From Candidatus Desulfarcum epimagneticum (lineage in GTDB: Bacteria > Desulfobacterota > Desulfobacteria > Desulfobacterales > CR-1), in contig CAACVI010000049.1 in NCBI GenBank assembly GCA_900659855.1, forward strand, positions 1 to 64,000: a stretch of DNA of 64,000 bases, given 5' to 3'. The notes beneath the pieces are model-generated. The model was not told the origin of the DNA. It was given only the letters and a program-made list of their open reading frames with translations, and ran no database searches. The translations under genes and the position numbers were made by a program. This document shows, piece by piece, positions 16,729 to 22,271 of the stretch. How positions within the stretch are numbered: position 1 is the first letter of the stretch; every line of letters begins with the position of its first letter.

Positions 16729-17724
16729 ATGCGCGCCATTGTGACAGGAATGGGATACTTCACCCCCAAGACCCGATTGTCCAACCATGACCTTGAACGC
16801 ATGGTGGACACCAGCGACGAGTGGATCACCGCCCGGACGGGAATCAAAGAGCGGCGAATACTGGAAAAAGGAAAAGGAACGTCTTATATGGCCGTCAGGG
16901 CGGCCCGGTCCCTTCTGGCCGGCCGGAACATCCCGGCCGATGAAATCGATATGATCATCGTGGCCACCGTCACCCCCGACATGCCGGTGCCCGCCACCGC
17001 GGCCTTTGTCCAGCGGGAGATCAAGGCCTCCAACTGCGGCGGATTCGATTTGAACGGCGGCTGCGCGGGCTTTGTCTGCGCCTTTTCCATCGCCTCCCAG
17101 TTCATCGAAACCGGGAAATACAAAAAAGTCATGGTCATCGGCGCGGACAAGATGAGCGGGATCATCGACTATGAGGACCGCAACACCTGCGTCATTTTCG
17201 GAGACGGCGCGGGCGCCGTTCTGCTGGAGCCCTCGGAGGAAGAGGACGAAGGGGTCCGGGATTTCATCCTGCGGCTGGACGGCTCAGGCGCGGATATGCT
17301 TCGCGTGGATGCCGGCGGCAGCCTTCACCCGGCCACGCGGGAGACTGTGGAAAAGAAAATGCACTATGTCTTCCAGGACGGCAAAGCCGTGTTCAAACAC
17401 GCCGTCAAGGGAATGGCGGATGTCTCGGGCCGCATCCTGGACGAAAACGATCTTTCCCCGGACGACATGGGGCTCCTGGTCCCCCACCAGGCCAATATAC
17501 GCATCATCGACGCGGTTTCCAAAAAACTGGATCTGCCGTCGGAAAAAGTGGCCGTCAACCTGGAGAAATACGGCAACACCACCGCCGCCACCATCCCCAT
17601 CGCCCTGGCCGAGGCCTATGAAGAGGGAAAAATCGAAAAAGGCGACTGGGTGGTGATCTCGGCTTTCGGAGCGGGCTTCACATGGGGAAGCGCCCTTTTT
17701 AAATGGGCCATGGACAAACCGTGA
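16729..17724 (+). CDS. fabH: 3-oxoacyl-ACP synthase III
   Basis: FabH starts fatty-acid synthesis by condensing an acyl-CoA, usually acetyl-CoA, with malonyl-ACP. The 331-residue product has the catalytic triad: Cys112 in GGCAGF, His253 in VPHQAN and Asn283 in KYGNTT. The N-terminal VTGMGYFTP and DEWITARTGIKERR are typical. The ATG at 16729 is chosen because AAGG lies eight bases upstream; a TTG two codons earlier is the alternative. The gene overlaps glnE. No other fab genes are near. Confidence 0.95.
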   Translation: MRAIVTGMGYFTPKTRLSNHDLERMVDTSDEWITARTGIKERRILEKGKGTSYMAVRAARSLLAGRNIPADEIDMIIVATVTPDMPVPATAAFVQREIKASNCGGFDLNGGCAGFVCAFSIASQFIETGKYKKVMVIGADKMSGIIDYEDRNTCVIFGDGAGAVLLEPSEEEDEGVRDFILRLDGSGADMLRVDAGGSLHPATRETVEKKMHYVFQDGKAVFKHAVKGMADVSGRILDENDLSPDDMGLLVPHQANIRIIDAVSKKLDLPSEKVAVNLEKYGNTTAATIPIALAEAYEEGKIEKGDWVVISAFGAGFTWGSALFKWAMDKP

Positions 17725-20576
17725 CCCCGGATTCCTCCAGTATCCCCGGGGACCCTGGGGGCCTTTTTCCCGGGGAAGCCGACGCCGATTTTCAAAAAGA
17801 GGCGGAAAAAGTCTCGTCCTTCAGCGACTTTGTGTCCGGATACATGGCCCGGAGCCCAAAGGCCTTTTCCCGTCTTGTAAAAAGCGGAGACCTCCACGCG
17901 CCTTACCCCCCCGGGGAATACGAAAAACGCCTGAGCGCCCTGCTCCCCGGGTCCCAGGACCCTCCCATCGCCTTTCCGGACCTTCAGCGGCTTTTACGAC
18001 AATTCAGAAACCGGGAAATGGTTCGAATCGCCTGGCGGGATCTGTCGGACCGGGCCGACCTGTTTGAGACCATGCGCGGTCTTTCCGACCTGGCCGACGC
18101 CTGCCTGGATTTGCCCCTGTCCCTTTTGACCCGGGACCTGTCCGCCAAATGGGGGACCCCGGTTTCCGCGGACAAAACGCCCCAGGGAATGGTGGTCCTG
18201 GGGATGGGAAAGCTCGGGGGCCGGGAGCTGAACTTTTCCTCGGACATCGACCTGATATTCGCCCACCCGGAGCCGGGCCGGACCTCGGGCGGAGAAAAAA
18301 CCATTGAAAACGAAGAGTTCTTCAACCGCCTGGCCACCCTTTTGACCCGGGCGCTGGGAGAGAAAACCCCGGACGGATTTGTGTTCAGGATCGATCTGAG
18401 ACTTCGTCCCCACGGGGAGAGCGGCCCGATGGTCATGAGCTTCGGGGCCATGGAGGATTATTACCAGCGCCACGGCCGGGAATGGGAGCGCTACGCCATG
18501 ATCAAGGCCCGGGTGGCGGCCGGGGATAAAATCGCGGGCCGTCGGCTCATGGACACGCTCAAACCCTTTGTTTTCCGGCGTTACCTTGACTTCGGCGCCT
18601 TTGAGTCCTTAAGGGACATGAAACACATGATCTCCCTGGATGTGAAACGCAAAAAAATGGCGGCCAACATCAAGCTGGGCCCCGGCGGCATACGGGAGGT
18701 GGAATTTTTCGGCCAGGTGTTTCAGCTGATCCGGGGAGGCATATCCCCGGACCTTCAGGACCGGAGCATCCTGAATGTGCTGAGCGTCCTTGAAAAAAAA
18801 GGCCTCATCCCCGCGAAAGTCAGGGAGGAGCTTCACCGGGCGTATGTGTTCCTGCGGATGACGGAAAACCGGCTCCAGGAATTTTCCGATTTAAAAGTCC
18901 ATGACCTTCCCCGGGACCCTTCGGGCCGAAAACGGCTGGCCGCTTCCCTGGGTTTTTCGGAGTGGGACGTTTTTGAATCAGCCCTGGGGGAAAAAATGGC
19001 CGACGTCCACCACCATTTCAGCCGGCTTTTGACCCCGGAAGATGAAAAAAAAGACACAGACCCGGGCCTGGACGCCTTGAAAAGCGTGTGGCGCCGCCCC
19101 GGGGACGATTCGGCGGCCGGGGCCGCTCTTAAGGCGGCGGGCTATCCCGACCCCGGGGCCGTGCTGGACCGGCTCAAAGGATTAAAGGGATCGGCGGCCA
19201 CCCGGTCCCTGGGATCGGGAGCGCGGAAACTTCTGGACCGGCTGGTCCCGGCCGCGCTCAAAGAAACATCCACGGCGCCCGACCCTTCGTCGGCCGCCGT
19301 GCGAATCCTGGATTTTATCCACGCCATTGAAAGACGGGCCTGTTACCTGTCGCTTCTTGTGGAAAATCCCTCCGCGCTCCGGCATCTCATCCGCCTCTTT
19401 TCGGCCGGCCCGTGGATTTTGTCCTTTGTGTCCAAAAACCCCGCGCTTCTGGACGAGCTTCTGGACCCCCGGACCCTTTACTCGCCCCCGGACCGGACCG
19501 GTCTGAAACAAAGGATGGACTCTGTGGCCGGCGCCCTGGACCCGGATGATCTGGAGCGCCAGATGGAGACCCTGGCCATTTTCAGGCAGGTGAACATGCT
19601 TCGGGTGGCGGCGGCCGACATCTCAGGGGCCATCCCCCTTATGAAGGTCAGCGATCATCTTTCCCACATCGCCGGGGCGATTTTGGAGCAGGCGCTGGCG
19701 CTTTGCCGCGACCGCCTTGAAAAAAAACACGGCCGGCCCTCCTGGTCAGACAAAAATCCCCGCCCGGACCGGGGATTCGCCGTGATCGCCTACGGCAAGC
19801 TCGGAGGCCTGGAGCTGGGATACGCCTCGGACATCGACCTGGTTTTCCTTCATTGCGCCGAGCCCGGGGAAACCGGCGGCCCGGACCGCCCCATGGACAA
19901 CGCCCAGTTCTTCGCCCGCCTGGGCCAGCGGATCATCACCATGCTCACCTCCCGCACAGCGGCGGGGAACATCTATGAGATCGACATGCGGCTGCGGCCC
20001 AGCGGCTCGGCCGGGGCCCTGGTGAGCCACATCGACGCCTTTCGGGAGTACCATTTAAACCGCGCCTGGACATGGGAAGCCCAGGCCATGGTCCGGGCCA
20101 GGGCCATCTGCGGCGATCCGGAGCTGATGGACCGGTTTTCAGAAATTCGCAAAGAGGCCCTTTGCCGGCCCCGGCGAACCGCCGATCTGCGCCGGGAGGT
20201 CGCTGACATGCGGGAACGGATGCGCCAAACCCGGATCAAGAAAAAAGACGGCCATTTCGACATCAAGCAGGGCGAAGGCGCCCTGGTGGACATCGAGTTC
20301 ATCGTCCAGTTTCTCACCCTTTTAAAGGCCCGTGAAAAACCCGGGCTTGCGGCCTTCACCGACAATGTGCGCCTCATCGGCGCCCTGATGGAGACCCGGG
20401 TCATCAGCCCGAACGCGGCCCATTCCCTGAGACACGCCTGCCTGGCCTTCCGCTCTCTCATTCACCGGCTCAACCTCCGGGAAGCGCCCGGCCTTTTGCC
20501 GGAAGAGCGTTTCCAGCCGATGCGCCAAAGGGTCCGCCGCGTGTGGAACGCCGTTTTCGGCCCCAGCGGCCCTTAA
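17703..20576 (+). CDS. glnE: glutamine synthetase adenylyltransferase/deadenylase
   Basis: A 957-residue protein with two nucleotidyltransferase units, as in GlnE: GMGKLGGRELNFSSDID near residue 164 (deadenylylating half) and AYGKLGGLELGYASDID near 693 (adenylylating half). Each is followed by a helical GlnD-like UTase domain. It adds or removes AMP on glutamine synthetase in response to PII state, controlling nitrogen assimilation. The frame begins at ATG 17703 inside fabH; a GTG at 17721 that overlaps the fabH stop (GTGA) is an equally likely start and would shorten it by six residues. Confidence 0.94.
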   Translation: MGHGQTVTPDSSSIPGDPGGLFPGEADADFQKEAEKVSSFSDFVSGYMARSPKAFSRLVKSGDLHAPYPPGEYEKRLSALLPGSQDPPIAFPDLQRLLRQFRNREMVRIAWRDLSDRADLFETMRGLSDLADACLDLPLSLLTRDLSAKWGTPVSADKTPQGMVVLGMGKLGGRELNFSSDIDLIFAHPEPGRTSGGEKTIENEEFFNRLATLLTRALGEKTPDGFVFRIDLRLRPHGESGPMVMSFGAMEDYYQRHGREWERYAMIKARVAAGDKIAGRRLMDTLKPFVFRRYLDFGAFESLRDMKHMISLDVKRKKMAANIKLGPGGIREVEFFGQVFQLIRGGISPDLQDRSILNVLSVLEKKGLIPAKVREELHRAYVFLRMTENRLQEFSDLKVHDLPRDPSGRKRLAASLGFSEWDVFESALGEKMADVHHHFSRLLTPEDEKKDTDPGLDALKSVWRRPGDDSAAGAALKAAGYPDPGAVLDRLKGLKGSAATRSLGSGARKLLDRLVPAALKETSTAPDPSSAAVRILDFIHAIERRACYLSLLVENPSALRHLIRLFSAGPWILSFVSKNPALLDELLDPRTLYSPPDRTGLKQRMDSVAGALDPDDLERQMETLAIFRQVNMLRVAAADISGAIPLMKVSDHLSHIAGAILEQALALCRDRLEKKHGRPSWSDKNPRPDRGFAVIAYGKLGGLELGYASDIDLVFLHCAEPGETGGPDRPMDNAQFFARLGQRIITMLTSRTAAGNIYEIDMRLRPSGSAGALVSHIDAFREYHLNRAWTWEAQAMVRARAICGDPELMDRFSEIRKEALCRPRRTADLRREVADMRERMRQTRIKKKDGHFDIKQGEGALVDIEFIVQFLTLLKAREKPGLAAFTDNVRLIGALMETRVISPNAAHSLRHACLAFRSLIHRLNLREAPGLLPEERFQPMRQRVRRVWNAVFGPSGP

Positions 20577-20602: not shown

Positions 20603-20625
20603 TTTGACGGCGTCGTAAAAAATCC
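20603..20625. repeat. short copy of dispersed repeat (GTCGTAAAAAATCC core)
   Basis: GACGGCGTCGTAAAAAATCC lies in the 112-base gap after glnE and matches, in the opposite orientation, the outer arm of the elements at 5311-5432 and 10450-10504. A related GGCGTCGTAAAAATCC lies at about 25373-25388. Confidence 0.65.
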
Positions 20626-20688
20626 GATATTTTTTTTCGCCGTTTTATGGTATATACACACGACAAAATCCATCATAAGGAGTCCAAT

Positions 20689-20853
20689 ATGAAAGATCTG
20701 CTGATTGTTGTGGCCATCATCGGCCTGTGGTATCTCATGCAGGCGGTGATCCTGCCGAAAATGGGCATTTCCACATGAGTGAGGGACGCCTGTCAGGTGA
20801 CAGACCCGAAGGAAAAAACGGAAAAGCCCCAAATCACAGACCGGAGCCAATGA
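20689..20853 (+). CDS. candidate 54-residue membrane-anchored selenoprotein (TGA at 20776 read as selenocysteine)
   Basis: A strong ribosome site (AAGGAG, 20678-20683) precedes ATG 20689. The frame encodes a short N-terminal membrane helix (about residues 3-22), then PKMGIST, a TGA at 20776-20778, and 24 more codons beginning VRDACQV, ending at TGA 20851-20853. That second stop overlaps the mpl ATG as ATGA, a normal coupling arrangement. Immediately after the first TGA lies a hairpin with apical loop AGGU at a distance matching known bacterial SECIS elements. The product would carry Sec30 and Cys35 (U-x4-C) on a membrane tether, suggesting a redox role. The alternative is a 29-residue peptide ending at 20778, with mpl starting at 20775. 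Function is unknown. Confidence 0.6.
20783..20807 (+). promoter_or_regulatory. SECIS-like hairpin after the in-frame TGA
   Basis: Inner stem CTGTC/GACAG (20790-20794 with 20799-20803) closes loop AGGT (20795-20798). Outer GGG/CCC pairs (20783-20785 with 20805-20807) extend it with an asymmetric internal loop. The apical loop begins 16 bases after the TGA. The Escherichia coli fdhF SECIS places its AGGUCU loop 17 bases after the UGA, so spacing and loop start are close to the known SelB-binding element. Confidence 0.55.
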
Positions 20854-22271
20854 CGGCCGGACGAAACCGGATTCCGGAAAACGTCCAAAAAATCCATCTC
20901 ATCGGAGCGTGCGGGACCGGCATGGGCGCGCTGGCCTGCATGCTCAAAGACCGGGGCCATGACGTCACGGGGTCGGATGAAAACGTCTATCCCCCCATGA
21001 GCGATTTTCTGGCCCGAAAAAACATTCCCGTGACCAACGCCTACTCCCCCCGGAATCTTTCCCCGGCCCCGGACCTCGTGGTGGTGGGCAACACGGTGAG
21101 AAAAGACAACCCCGAGGCCCGGGAACTCCGGCGTCTCGGGCTTTTTTTCTGCTCCATGCCCCAGGCCGTCTCCCACTTTATGGCCGCCGGGAAAACATCC
21201 ATCGTGGCGGCGGGCTCCCACGGAAAAACCACCACCTCGTCCCTCGCGGCGTGGATCCTCCATGAGGCCGGGCTGGACCCCTCCTTTATGATCGGGGGGA
21301 TCCTGGGCAATTTTGACTCCAACCACCGGGACGGCAAAGGCCCCCACATCGTCATCGAAGGCGACGAGTACGACACGGCCTTTTTCGACAAGGGCTCCAA
21401 ATTCCTTCACTACGCCCCGGACATCGCCATCCTCACATCCGTGGAGTTTGATCACGCAGACATTTTCACAGACCTGGACCATGTCATGGCCGCCTTTGAC
21501 GCCTTTATCTCCATCCTGCCGCCTGACGGAACCCTTCTGGCCTTTGACGGCGACGAAAACATCGCCCGCCTGCTCGCGGGACGGGACCGCCCCTCGGAGC
21601 TGTACGGCCTGAAACGGCGCTCCCCCTGGAGCCTGGGACGCTTTTCCCCGGGGCCGGGAAAATCCTCCTTTTCCGTTTTCCGGCATGGAGAGTTTTTCGG
21701 CGACTTCCGCATTCCCATGGTGGGCCGCCACAACATGTTAAACGCCCTGGCCGCCATCGCCGCGGCCCATCTTTTGGGCGTTCCCCGGCGAATTATCAAA
21801 AGCGCCCTGGCCGCGTTCAAGGGGGTCAAAAGGCGGCAGGAGATTCGCGGGGTCAAAAACGGCGTGACGGTGATAGATGATTTCGCCCACCACCCCACGG
21901 CGGTCCGGGAAACCGTGGACGGGGTGAAATCGGCCTATCCCGGCCGCCGCCTCATCGCGGTGTTCGAGCCCCGGACCCACTCCAGCAGGCGGAACGTGTT
22001 CCAAAGCCATTACCCCCTGTCCTTTGACCGCGCCGATGTCGTGTGCGTCCGAAAGCCCCCTTTCCTGGACACGCTGCCCGAAAAGATACGCTTTTCATCC
22101 CAAAAGCTGGTCTCGGATCTTCAAAAACGCCAAAAAGAGGCCTTTTATTTCTCCAACGCCGACGCCATCGTGGATTTTATCGCGGCCGGCGCCCGGCCCG
22201 GGGATATCGCGCTGGTCATGTCAAACGGCGGCTTTGAGCGCATTCATGAAAAACTGCTGGACCGCCTGTAA
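20850..22271 (+). CDS. mpl: UDP-N-acetylmuramate:L-alanyl-gamma-D-glutamyl-meso-diaminopimelate ligase
   Basis: Mpl recycles cell-wall tripeptide by joining it to UDP-MurNAc. The 473-residue protein has the Mur ligase order: Rossmann-like start KIHLIGACGTGMGALA, P-loop GSHGKTTTSSLAAW, the Mpl-specific EGDEYDTAFFDKGSKFLHY, VEFDHADIF, the central domain with VGRHNMLNALAA, and C-terminal DDFAHHPTAVRETV. Start 20850 places the Rossmann motif close to the N-terminus as in known Mpl, and overlaps the preceding small frame (ATGA). Starts at 20775 and 20727 would add unrelated residues. The pyrophosphate-wall genes murA-G are not in the window, as usual for mpl. Confidence 0.92.
   Translation: MTAGRNRIPENVQKIHLIGACGTGMGALACMLKDRGHDVTGSDENVYPPMSDFLARKNIPVTNAYSPRNLSPAPDLVVVGNTVRKDNPEARELRRLGLFFCSMPQAVSHFMAAGKTSIVAAGSHGKTTTSSLAAWILHEAGLDPSFMIGGILGNFDSNHRDGKGPHIVIEGDEYDTAFFDKGSKFLHYAPDIAILTSVEFDHADIFTDLDHVMAAFDAFISILPPDGTLLAFDGDENIARLLAGRDRPSELYGLKRRSPWSLGRFSPGPGKSSFSVFRHGEFFGDFRIPMVGRHNMLNALAAIAAAHLLGVPRRIIKSALAAFKGVKRRQEIRGVKNGVTVIDDFAHHPTAVRETVDGVKSAYPGRRLIAVFEPRTHSSRRNVFQSHYPLSFDRADVVCVRKPPFLDTLPEKIRFSSQKLVSDLQKRQKEAFYFSNADAIVDFIAAGARPGDIALVMSNGGFERIHEKLLDRL

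Follow-up and report, generated by a model that had tools for sequence, protein, structure and literature searches.

The short open reading frame at 20689–20853 (+) of the window, by which we mean the whole 64,000-nucleotide stretch of DNA analysed here, raises a simple question: does translation end at the TGA in its thirtieth codon, or is this TGA (20776–20778, +) read as selenocysteine (Sec)? The original prediction favoured Sec and treated the frame as a candidate selenocysteine microprotein, and the features it had pointed to were all in place. The microgene comprises 54 codons from an ATG to a TGA stop, and a ribosome-binding site, AAGGAG (20677–20682, +), lies 6 nt ahead of the ATG at 20689. 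Codons 2–24 (20692–20760, +) encode a hydrophobic stretch predicted to form a transmembrane helix, 24 sense codons separate the TGA of codon 30 from the terminal TGA at 20851–20853, and this terminal stop overlaps the ATG of mpl (20850–22271, +; TIGR01081, 411.8 bits against a cut-off of 388.7) as ATGA. With TGA read as Sec, the conceptual translation is MKDLLIVVAIIGLWYLMQAVILPKMGIST-U-VRDACQVTDPKEKTEKPQITDRSQ, in which Cys35 (20791–20793, +) is the presumed partner of Sec30 in a U-x4-C motif. The upstream neighbour is glnE (17703–20576, +; NF008292, 1069 bits). Two sigma-70-like promoter matches (9/12) that overlap each other lie between glnE and the microgene, at 20604–20633; shuffles average 0.3.

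A first scan with exact 8-residue peptides, using one genome per species, gave nine confirmed relatives; in all nine, TGA occupies the corresponding position and [M/L]-x-x-[A/S]-C comes after it. The titles of their records name Desulfobacteraceae, Deltaproteobacteria, Thermodesulfobacteriota, Geobacter and similar groups, or are unplaced. A ten-row profile matched 304 of 389 class-set genomes at E ≤ 0.01 (168 of 201 among the good-quality ones) and 175 of 395 phylum-set genomes at E ≤ 0.1, and a 68-row profile matched 170 of the 395 at E ≤ 0.01. The internal TGA was present at every place among the matches listed in the class-set and phylum-set profile searches. Single-protein queries gave no match in plasmids and no confirmed relative in viral contigs. 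When the Sec column was scored, TGA was found in 210 of 210 loci, representing 160 distinct proteins, and never Cys, TAA or TAG; the scoring read every stop through, so that TAA and TAG forms were detectable. The 210 loci include places that were retrieved twice, and the 160 distinct proteins, one of which (L188) is a 17-residue fragment, are the better number; two low-scoring loci were left out of the 210. Rejected as family members before this count were L186, an unrelated 297-residue frame without the TGA, and L187, which has the TGA but matches too weakly (E 0.005).

The plainest alternative is that the TGA is an ordinary stop, that only a 29-residue microprotein is made and that mpl begins at the ATG at 20775, a start that the original prediction had itself raised as counter-evidence. 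This ATG exists and is in frame with mpl. However, the match to TIGR01081 begins at residue 14 when the protein is counted from 20850 and at residue 39 when it is counted from 20775, so that the later ATG fits the mpl start better (412 bits). The terminal stops of the 160 distinct genes were mixed (TAA 67, TGA 58 and TAG 35; four of the 58 terminal TGAs are the second in-frame TGA of the double-TGA forms described below). As the Sec column is invariantly TGA while the terminal stops vary, the reading of codon 30 as an ordinary stop is rejected. The residues on both sides of the TGA are conserved as well, namely L at −8 (93%), P at −7 (99%), G at −4 (99%), T at −1 (91%), Sec itself (100%) and C at +5 (84%), giving the motif LPKxGxxT-Sec-x4-Cys. 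Upstream of the TGA, 2216 synonymous against 677 non-synonymous single changes were counted over 273 pairs, indicating clear coding selection; in codons +1 to +11, non-synonymous changes outnumber synonymous ones (391 against 276). A probability of 3e-71 from this analysis was disregarded, as it presumes that the sequences are independent. The U-x4-C continuation was present where the next gene was an ECF sigma factor, FmdB, thioredoxin or other, which indicates that conservation past the TGA is not borrowed from mpl. A conservation that stops at the TGA, with that of mpl beginning at 20775, had been named as the pattern that would speak against Sec, and this was not what we found. Considering also the selected hairpins described below, we regard the ordinary-stop reading as extremely improbable, and the open reading frame at 20689–20853 almost certainly encodes a real Sec protein of a conserved family, a judgement made from comparative sequence data.

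If the TGA is decoded as Sec, the genome should be able to do so, and the original prediction had asked for the machinery. The genome of the window (3.26 Mb, 99.7% complete) carries selA (572.6 bits), selB (373.3 bits), selC, the gene of tRNA-Sec (76.1 bits), and selD (368.1 bits). The selD gene has one in-frame TGA inside (L198, G000:C12:51993-52922), and SelD of this genome is therefore predicted to be a selenoprotein itself. In the phylum set, selB was detected in 353 of 395 genomes at a cut-off of E ≤ 1e-60, and the family occurred in 162 of the 353 selB-positive genomes against 8 of the 42 selB-negative ones (Fisher p 8e-4). In the remaining 191 selB-positive genomes no member was found at E ≤ 0.01, the family being absent or too diverged there. 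A looser re-search of nine selB-negative carriers from the first search revealed selB split over two contigs in one genome (G553) and over the cut-off in none, and in seven of the eight selB-negative carriers obtained with the 68-row profile no SelB fragment was distinguishable from other translation GTPases. The selB-negative carriers are draft genomes with selB-positive relatives in the same family, and we read their status as possible assembly loss.

Decoding of UGA as Sec also calls for a SECIS element, and the hairpin announced in the original prediction folds as claimed. It consists of CTGTC-AGGT-GACAG (20790–20803, +) with the loop at 20795–20798, 16 nt downstream of the TGA, and outer pairs are predicted between GGG (20783–20785) and CCC (20805–20807) on the same strand. 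The bSECIS criteria, as given in PMC13188914, are a loop of 3–9 nt with G in the first two loop positions, a stem of 4–16 bp, a distance of 16–37 nt from the UGA and an MFE ≤ −7.5. All four were satisfied in the window (spacing 16, loop AGGT, 5-bp stem, −8.9 kcal/mol). Taken alone, the hairpin of the window was unremarkable against dinucleotide shuffles (z 0.02, −0.14 and −0.63 for three stretches), a result that would suit an ordinary stop; folding of the single sequence was accordingly set aside as stand-alone evidence.

The family as a whole gave a different answer. All four bSECIS criteria were satisfied in 101 of the 160 members against 17.1 expected from synonymous re-encoding, and without the energy limit in 143 against 29.9 expected. 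Among the 59 hairpins failing at least one strict criterion, 42 failed only the energy limit. As the family was gathered by protein profile, this enrichment was not selected for. The 42 nt past the TGA had a mean folding z of −1.52 relative to synonymous re-encodings (107 members, 44 of them in the best 5%), and the 42 nt ahead of it a mean of −0.39 (14 of 107 in the best 5%). Two main hairpin shapes were recognised, one with the loop AGGT from 16 nt past the TGA and one with loops such as GGA from about 23 nt. In the AGGT type (56 distinct sequences), the third base of the Cys codon is always paired (31 T-A, 19 C-G and 6 T-G). Five of its eight pair positions beat nearly all shuffles (0, 0, 0, 2 and 1 of 500 reached the observed value); the other three did not, one side being invariant or the pairing not above chance, and two inner positions were paired in only 48 and 42 of the 56 sequences. 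In the second type, 28 loci gave 27 distinct sequences, and pairing was seen in 199 of 216 cells, where shuffles reached at most 129; this count is inflated, because the 28 loci were hand-picked from 46 without the AGGT type and the hairpin position was chosen per sequence; the resampling test, which applied one rule to all 160 real and control sequences, is the fairer measure. The RNA folding and covariation analysis proposed at the outset thus gave a family hairpin beyond what synonymous re-encoding explains, with covariation at part of the stem positions.

A replacement of Sec by Cys was looked for at the same column. Cys-containing homologues were found neither in the 210 scored loci nor among the matches listed in the profile searches within the phylum; as the search profiles bear Cys at the Sec column, a high score would be expected for any Cys form. 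In 20 weaker-scoring genomes examined for Cys forms, the family members all keep the TGA. The survey of related genomes that had been suggested as a check therefore returned numerous homologues with TGA and conserved downstream residues, and no Cys form. With the TGA kept, the downstream residues conserved, the hairpin selected and the Sec machinery present, the candidate selenocysteine microprotein of the original prediction held up, on firmer grounds than it had claimed.

One lineage may have gone further. Four loci of one genus, g289 (L174, L175, L177 and L180), have a second conserved in-frame TGA in the tail, within ..PTUDG[PQ][ST]C.., making a double-Sec microprotein possible there. A hairpin with the loop GGTC follows the first TGA in two of the four (L175 and L177), and a hairpin with the loop GGG or GGA follows the second TGA in three (L175, L177 and L180). 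The remaining predicted folds of these loci differ.

What kind of protein this would be can be read in part from its shape. In the AlphaFold2 model, the microprotein is a single helix of residues 2–24 followed by an unstructured tail (mean pLDDT 72; 92 and 88 in the first two ten-residue blocks). Across the family, the stretch from eight residues ahead of Sec to the end is basic, with a mean of 6.6 K/R against 3.8 D/E; the five residues at the N-terminus carry almost no net charge. According to the positive-inside rule, basic segments face the cytoplasm. The basic C-terminal tail would therefore give an N-out/C-in arrangement with Sec and Cys at the inner face of the membrane, and the product is likely a microprotein that crosses the membrane once and has its Sec/Cys pair on the cytoplasmic side, insertion and topology being deduced from the model and the charge pattern. 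Purine-rich sites, judged by eye, precede most of the homologue starts displayed. Counted over the 160 distinct proteins, the first Cys past Sec lies at +5 in 134, at +6 in 8 and farther away in 9, and is lacking in 9. The last group comprises four double-TGA forms truncated at their second TGA, one fragment and four true cases (L168, L170, L172 and L173). With these four lacking Cys and nine others having it past +6, not every member has the Se-S pair.

In a search for a constant operon partner, we clustered the 806 neighbours within three genes of the 160 loci. No universal partner gene was found in the 160 loci, and the neighbours change with lineage. The claimed coupling to mpl stood only in part: the ATGA overlap is real in the window, but mpl is a neighbour in this genome alone, and neither mpl nor glnE had a BLAST match in the 88 other large loci. 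The candidacy of mpl as part of the system was dropped on that account. The same result bears on the idea that the frame is a selenium-responsive leader, in which termination at the UGA or read-through would set the output of the gene that follows through translational coupling (in the window, mpl by way of ATGA). The read-through stop does overlap the mpl ATG in the window, and the end of the Sec frame overlaps other downstream genes in some loci; however, mpl follows in 0 of the 88 other loci, the next gene is on the other strand or farther off in many, and P, G, T, U and C of the peptide are themselves conserved, all of which makes such a leader very unlikely.

Some neighbours do recur. A thioredoxin-like cluster was found near 20 of the 160 loci; 11 of these come from one genus, and in ten of the 11 the gene is on the opposite strand. 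Same-strand thioredoxin genes within 400 nt occur in seven loci (L054, L096, L102, L115, L117, L130 and L176), the thioredoxins of L102 and L176 being confirmed as TIGR01068 and the other five assigned by clustering and sequence. In nine loci (L025, L097, L115, L117, L121, L129, L133, L147 and L183), the microgene has an FmdB zinc-ribbon gene directly beside it on its own strand, and in L115 and L117 the order is microgene, FmdB, thioredoxin; FmdB and the microgene may be functionally linked. In the 88 larger loci, thioredoxin accounted for 5 of 232 genes within 500 nt against 2 of 569 farther away (p 0.024) and FmdB for 6 of 232 against 1 of 569 (p 0.003), both p-values being post hoc and uncorrected, with families chosen because they had been seen there and queries taken from those loci. 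Most loci have neither neighbour. Representatives of these two clusters, and of the sigma, zf-HC2, ATPase and activase clusters mentioned below, were confirmed by Pfam or NCBIfam.

The thioredoxin and FmdB genes, recurrent in a minority of loci, favour a thioredoxin-linked relay. In such a scheme, UGA codon 30 would be decoded as selenocysteine under the direction of the hairpin 16 nt downstream, helix 2–24 would anchor the microprotein, and LPKxGxxT-Sec-x4-Cys would lie at the cytoplasmic membrane face. The Sec-Cys pair might cycle through a selenenyl-sulfide and be re-reduced by cytoplasmic thioredoxin, and the microprotein could thereby reduce, or relay electrons to, a membrane partner or substrate. 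For the relay as a function, we see the case as evenly poised. Taken as a whole, a SelB/SECIS-dependent membrane microselenoprotein with a thioredoxin-linked Sec-Cys redox pair is the best explanation and a reasonably probable one. The membrane-tethered redox protein with U-x4-C of the original prediction fares likewise: the helix is predicted and Cys is at +5 in most members, and the redox role, still a matter of interpretation, is somewhat better supported by the Se/S pair and the thioredoxin and FmdB neighbours.

Alternatively, the membrane-tethered selenol/thiol pair could serve as a soft-metal ligand, binding Cu, Hg, Cd or As, or else selenide/sulfide species, for delivery to transporters. 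A heavy-metal P-type ATPase cluster lies within two genes in 7 of the 160 loci (in L230 with HMA and E1-E2 ATPase domains), the nine FmdB zinc-ribbon neighbours would suit this role too, and a preference of such a ligand for Se over S could explain why the Cys form was not found. However, the ATPase link is restricted to few loci, the U-x4-C spacing is no classical CxxC metal site, and the thioredoxin genes that seven loci carry on the same strand speak for redox, so that we consider metal handling unlikely.

We give about the same low weight to a role as regulatory or structural subunit. The microprotein would then bind and tune a respiratory complex or one of the envelope, and its Sec would sense redox or selenium status. 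The single helix and unstructured tail of the model resemble those of small regulatory membrane proteins, and the widely varying gene neighbours are compatible with this role. An ECF sigma factor gene directly follows the microgene in 16 of the 160 loci, with a zf-HC2 anti-sigma-like gene next in 13, and in L019, L021, L139, L140 and L214 the sigma gene starts inside the tail of the Sec frame with an overlap of 14–41 nt. However, the loci with the sigma-factor arrangement all belong to the order of the window, and a common partner gene was not found. The thioredoxin-linked Sec-Cys pair stays the preferred reading. Other neighbours included a response-regulator cluster near 20 loci, a corrinoid-activase cluster near 18, mostly of one genus (RACo-type activase confirmed in L143), and clusters that we take to be MobB-like GTPases (near 8 of the 160 loci) and glutamyl-tRNA synthetases (near 5). 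Conserved neighbour strips confined to one family were also present.

Is the family already known under another name? NCBIfam 20.0 and Pfam-A contained no convincing model for 68 members at E ≤ 0.01; in each library two families were matched, each by one member, with best E values of 0.0045 and 0.0071. Among characterised proteins, small single-pass bacterial membrane proteins such as E. coli CydX, a small respiratory subunit, are of the same size class and likewise have one helix and a stand-alone microgene. We know of no small single-pass regulatory membrane protein of this kind that carries selenocysteine. The UxxC/CxxU thiol-redox selenoproteins (PMC13188914, Table 1) resemble the family in SelB/SECIS decoding of UGA, a Cys that usually lies near the Sec, a presumed redox role and occurrence in Desulfobacterota, whereas the microprotein has 54 residues, one membrane helix and U-x4-C, and no Cys homologue was found. 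Neither a thioredoxin-like fold (AlphaFold2 model; Pfam and NCBIfam searches) nor a UxxC/CxxU motif is present in it. FmdB-family zinc ribbon selenoproteins (TIGR02605) appear in the part of the GOS survey available to us (PMC2398784); they are small like the microprotein, and FmdB genes adjoin it in nine loci, but FmdB is a zinc ribbon without its helix, and the CxxC motifs of the FmdB neighbours displayed contain Cys. Small unassigned selenoproteins of Desulfobacterota, as far as the available portions of the sources describe them, include the dual-CXXC OS_HP3 type (NF041197) and DF, DG and DW (NF049942, NF049953; deep-Sep, PMC12013277), the latter three reported with Cys homologues, unlike the present family. 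The OS_HP3 and DF/DG/DW models matched 0 of 68 family members at E ≤ 0.01. No counterpart by name or motif was found in Table 1 of PMC13188914 (2026; 119 families or subfamilies), which gives neither lengths nor membrane helices, and none in the accessible parts of PMC9312934 or, as a cluster, of the 2007 stop-codon survey (PMC1914089). The literature searched contained no description of the family; an earlier mention elsewhere, preprints included, is possible.

The discovery of selenoproteins has in large part relied on Cys/Sec pairs. In the sections of these papers available to us, deep-Sep discards candidates unless a Sec homologue is known or two or more Cys homologues exist (PMC12013277), the 2005 read-through method required open reading frames of 80–90 residues (PMC1242214), PMC2398784 uses a Cys/Sec-pair method, and Cys homologues are described as the usual case for selenoprotein families (PMC13188914). 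The family was likely overlooked because several discovery methods demand Cys homologues or longer open reading frames. According to the same part of PMC13188914, SECIS-first searching (bSECISearch) by itself needs no Cys homologues, so this route could have found it. We think it fairly probable that this is the first described obligate-Sec microprotein family: a single-helix selenoprotein of the membrane, found throughout the phylum Desulfobacterota, lacking any Cys counterpart, carrying two Sec in one lineage and performing a membrane-surface chemistry beyond that of sulfur. If true, there would be a hidden set of selenoproteins invisible to Cys-pair and length filters, and a family in which Sec is never exchanged for Cys in the homologues examined across the phylum would offer a direct test case for selenium-only chemistry. 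As the family is widespread in the sets searched and yet has no NCBIfam or Pfam model, sulfate and metal reducers may have a part of their membrane biology that has so far escaped notice, which suggests that short open reading frames with an internal TGA merit a systematic re-scan.

A last observation concerns copy number. On one contig (G596:C109:8701-8999), two matches adjoin each other (L185 and L188), the second being the short fragment with the TGA, which suggests a tandem or decayed second copy of the microgene.
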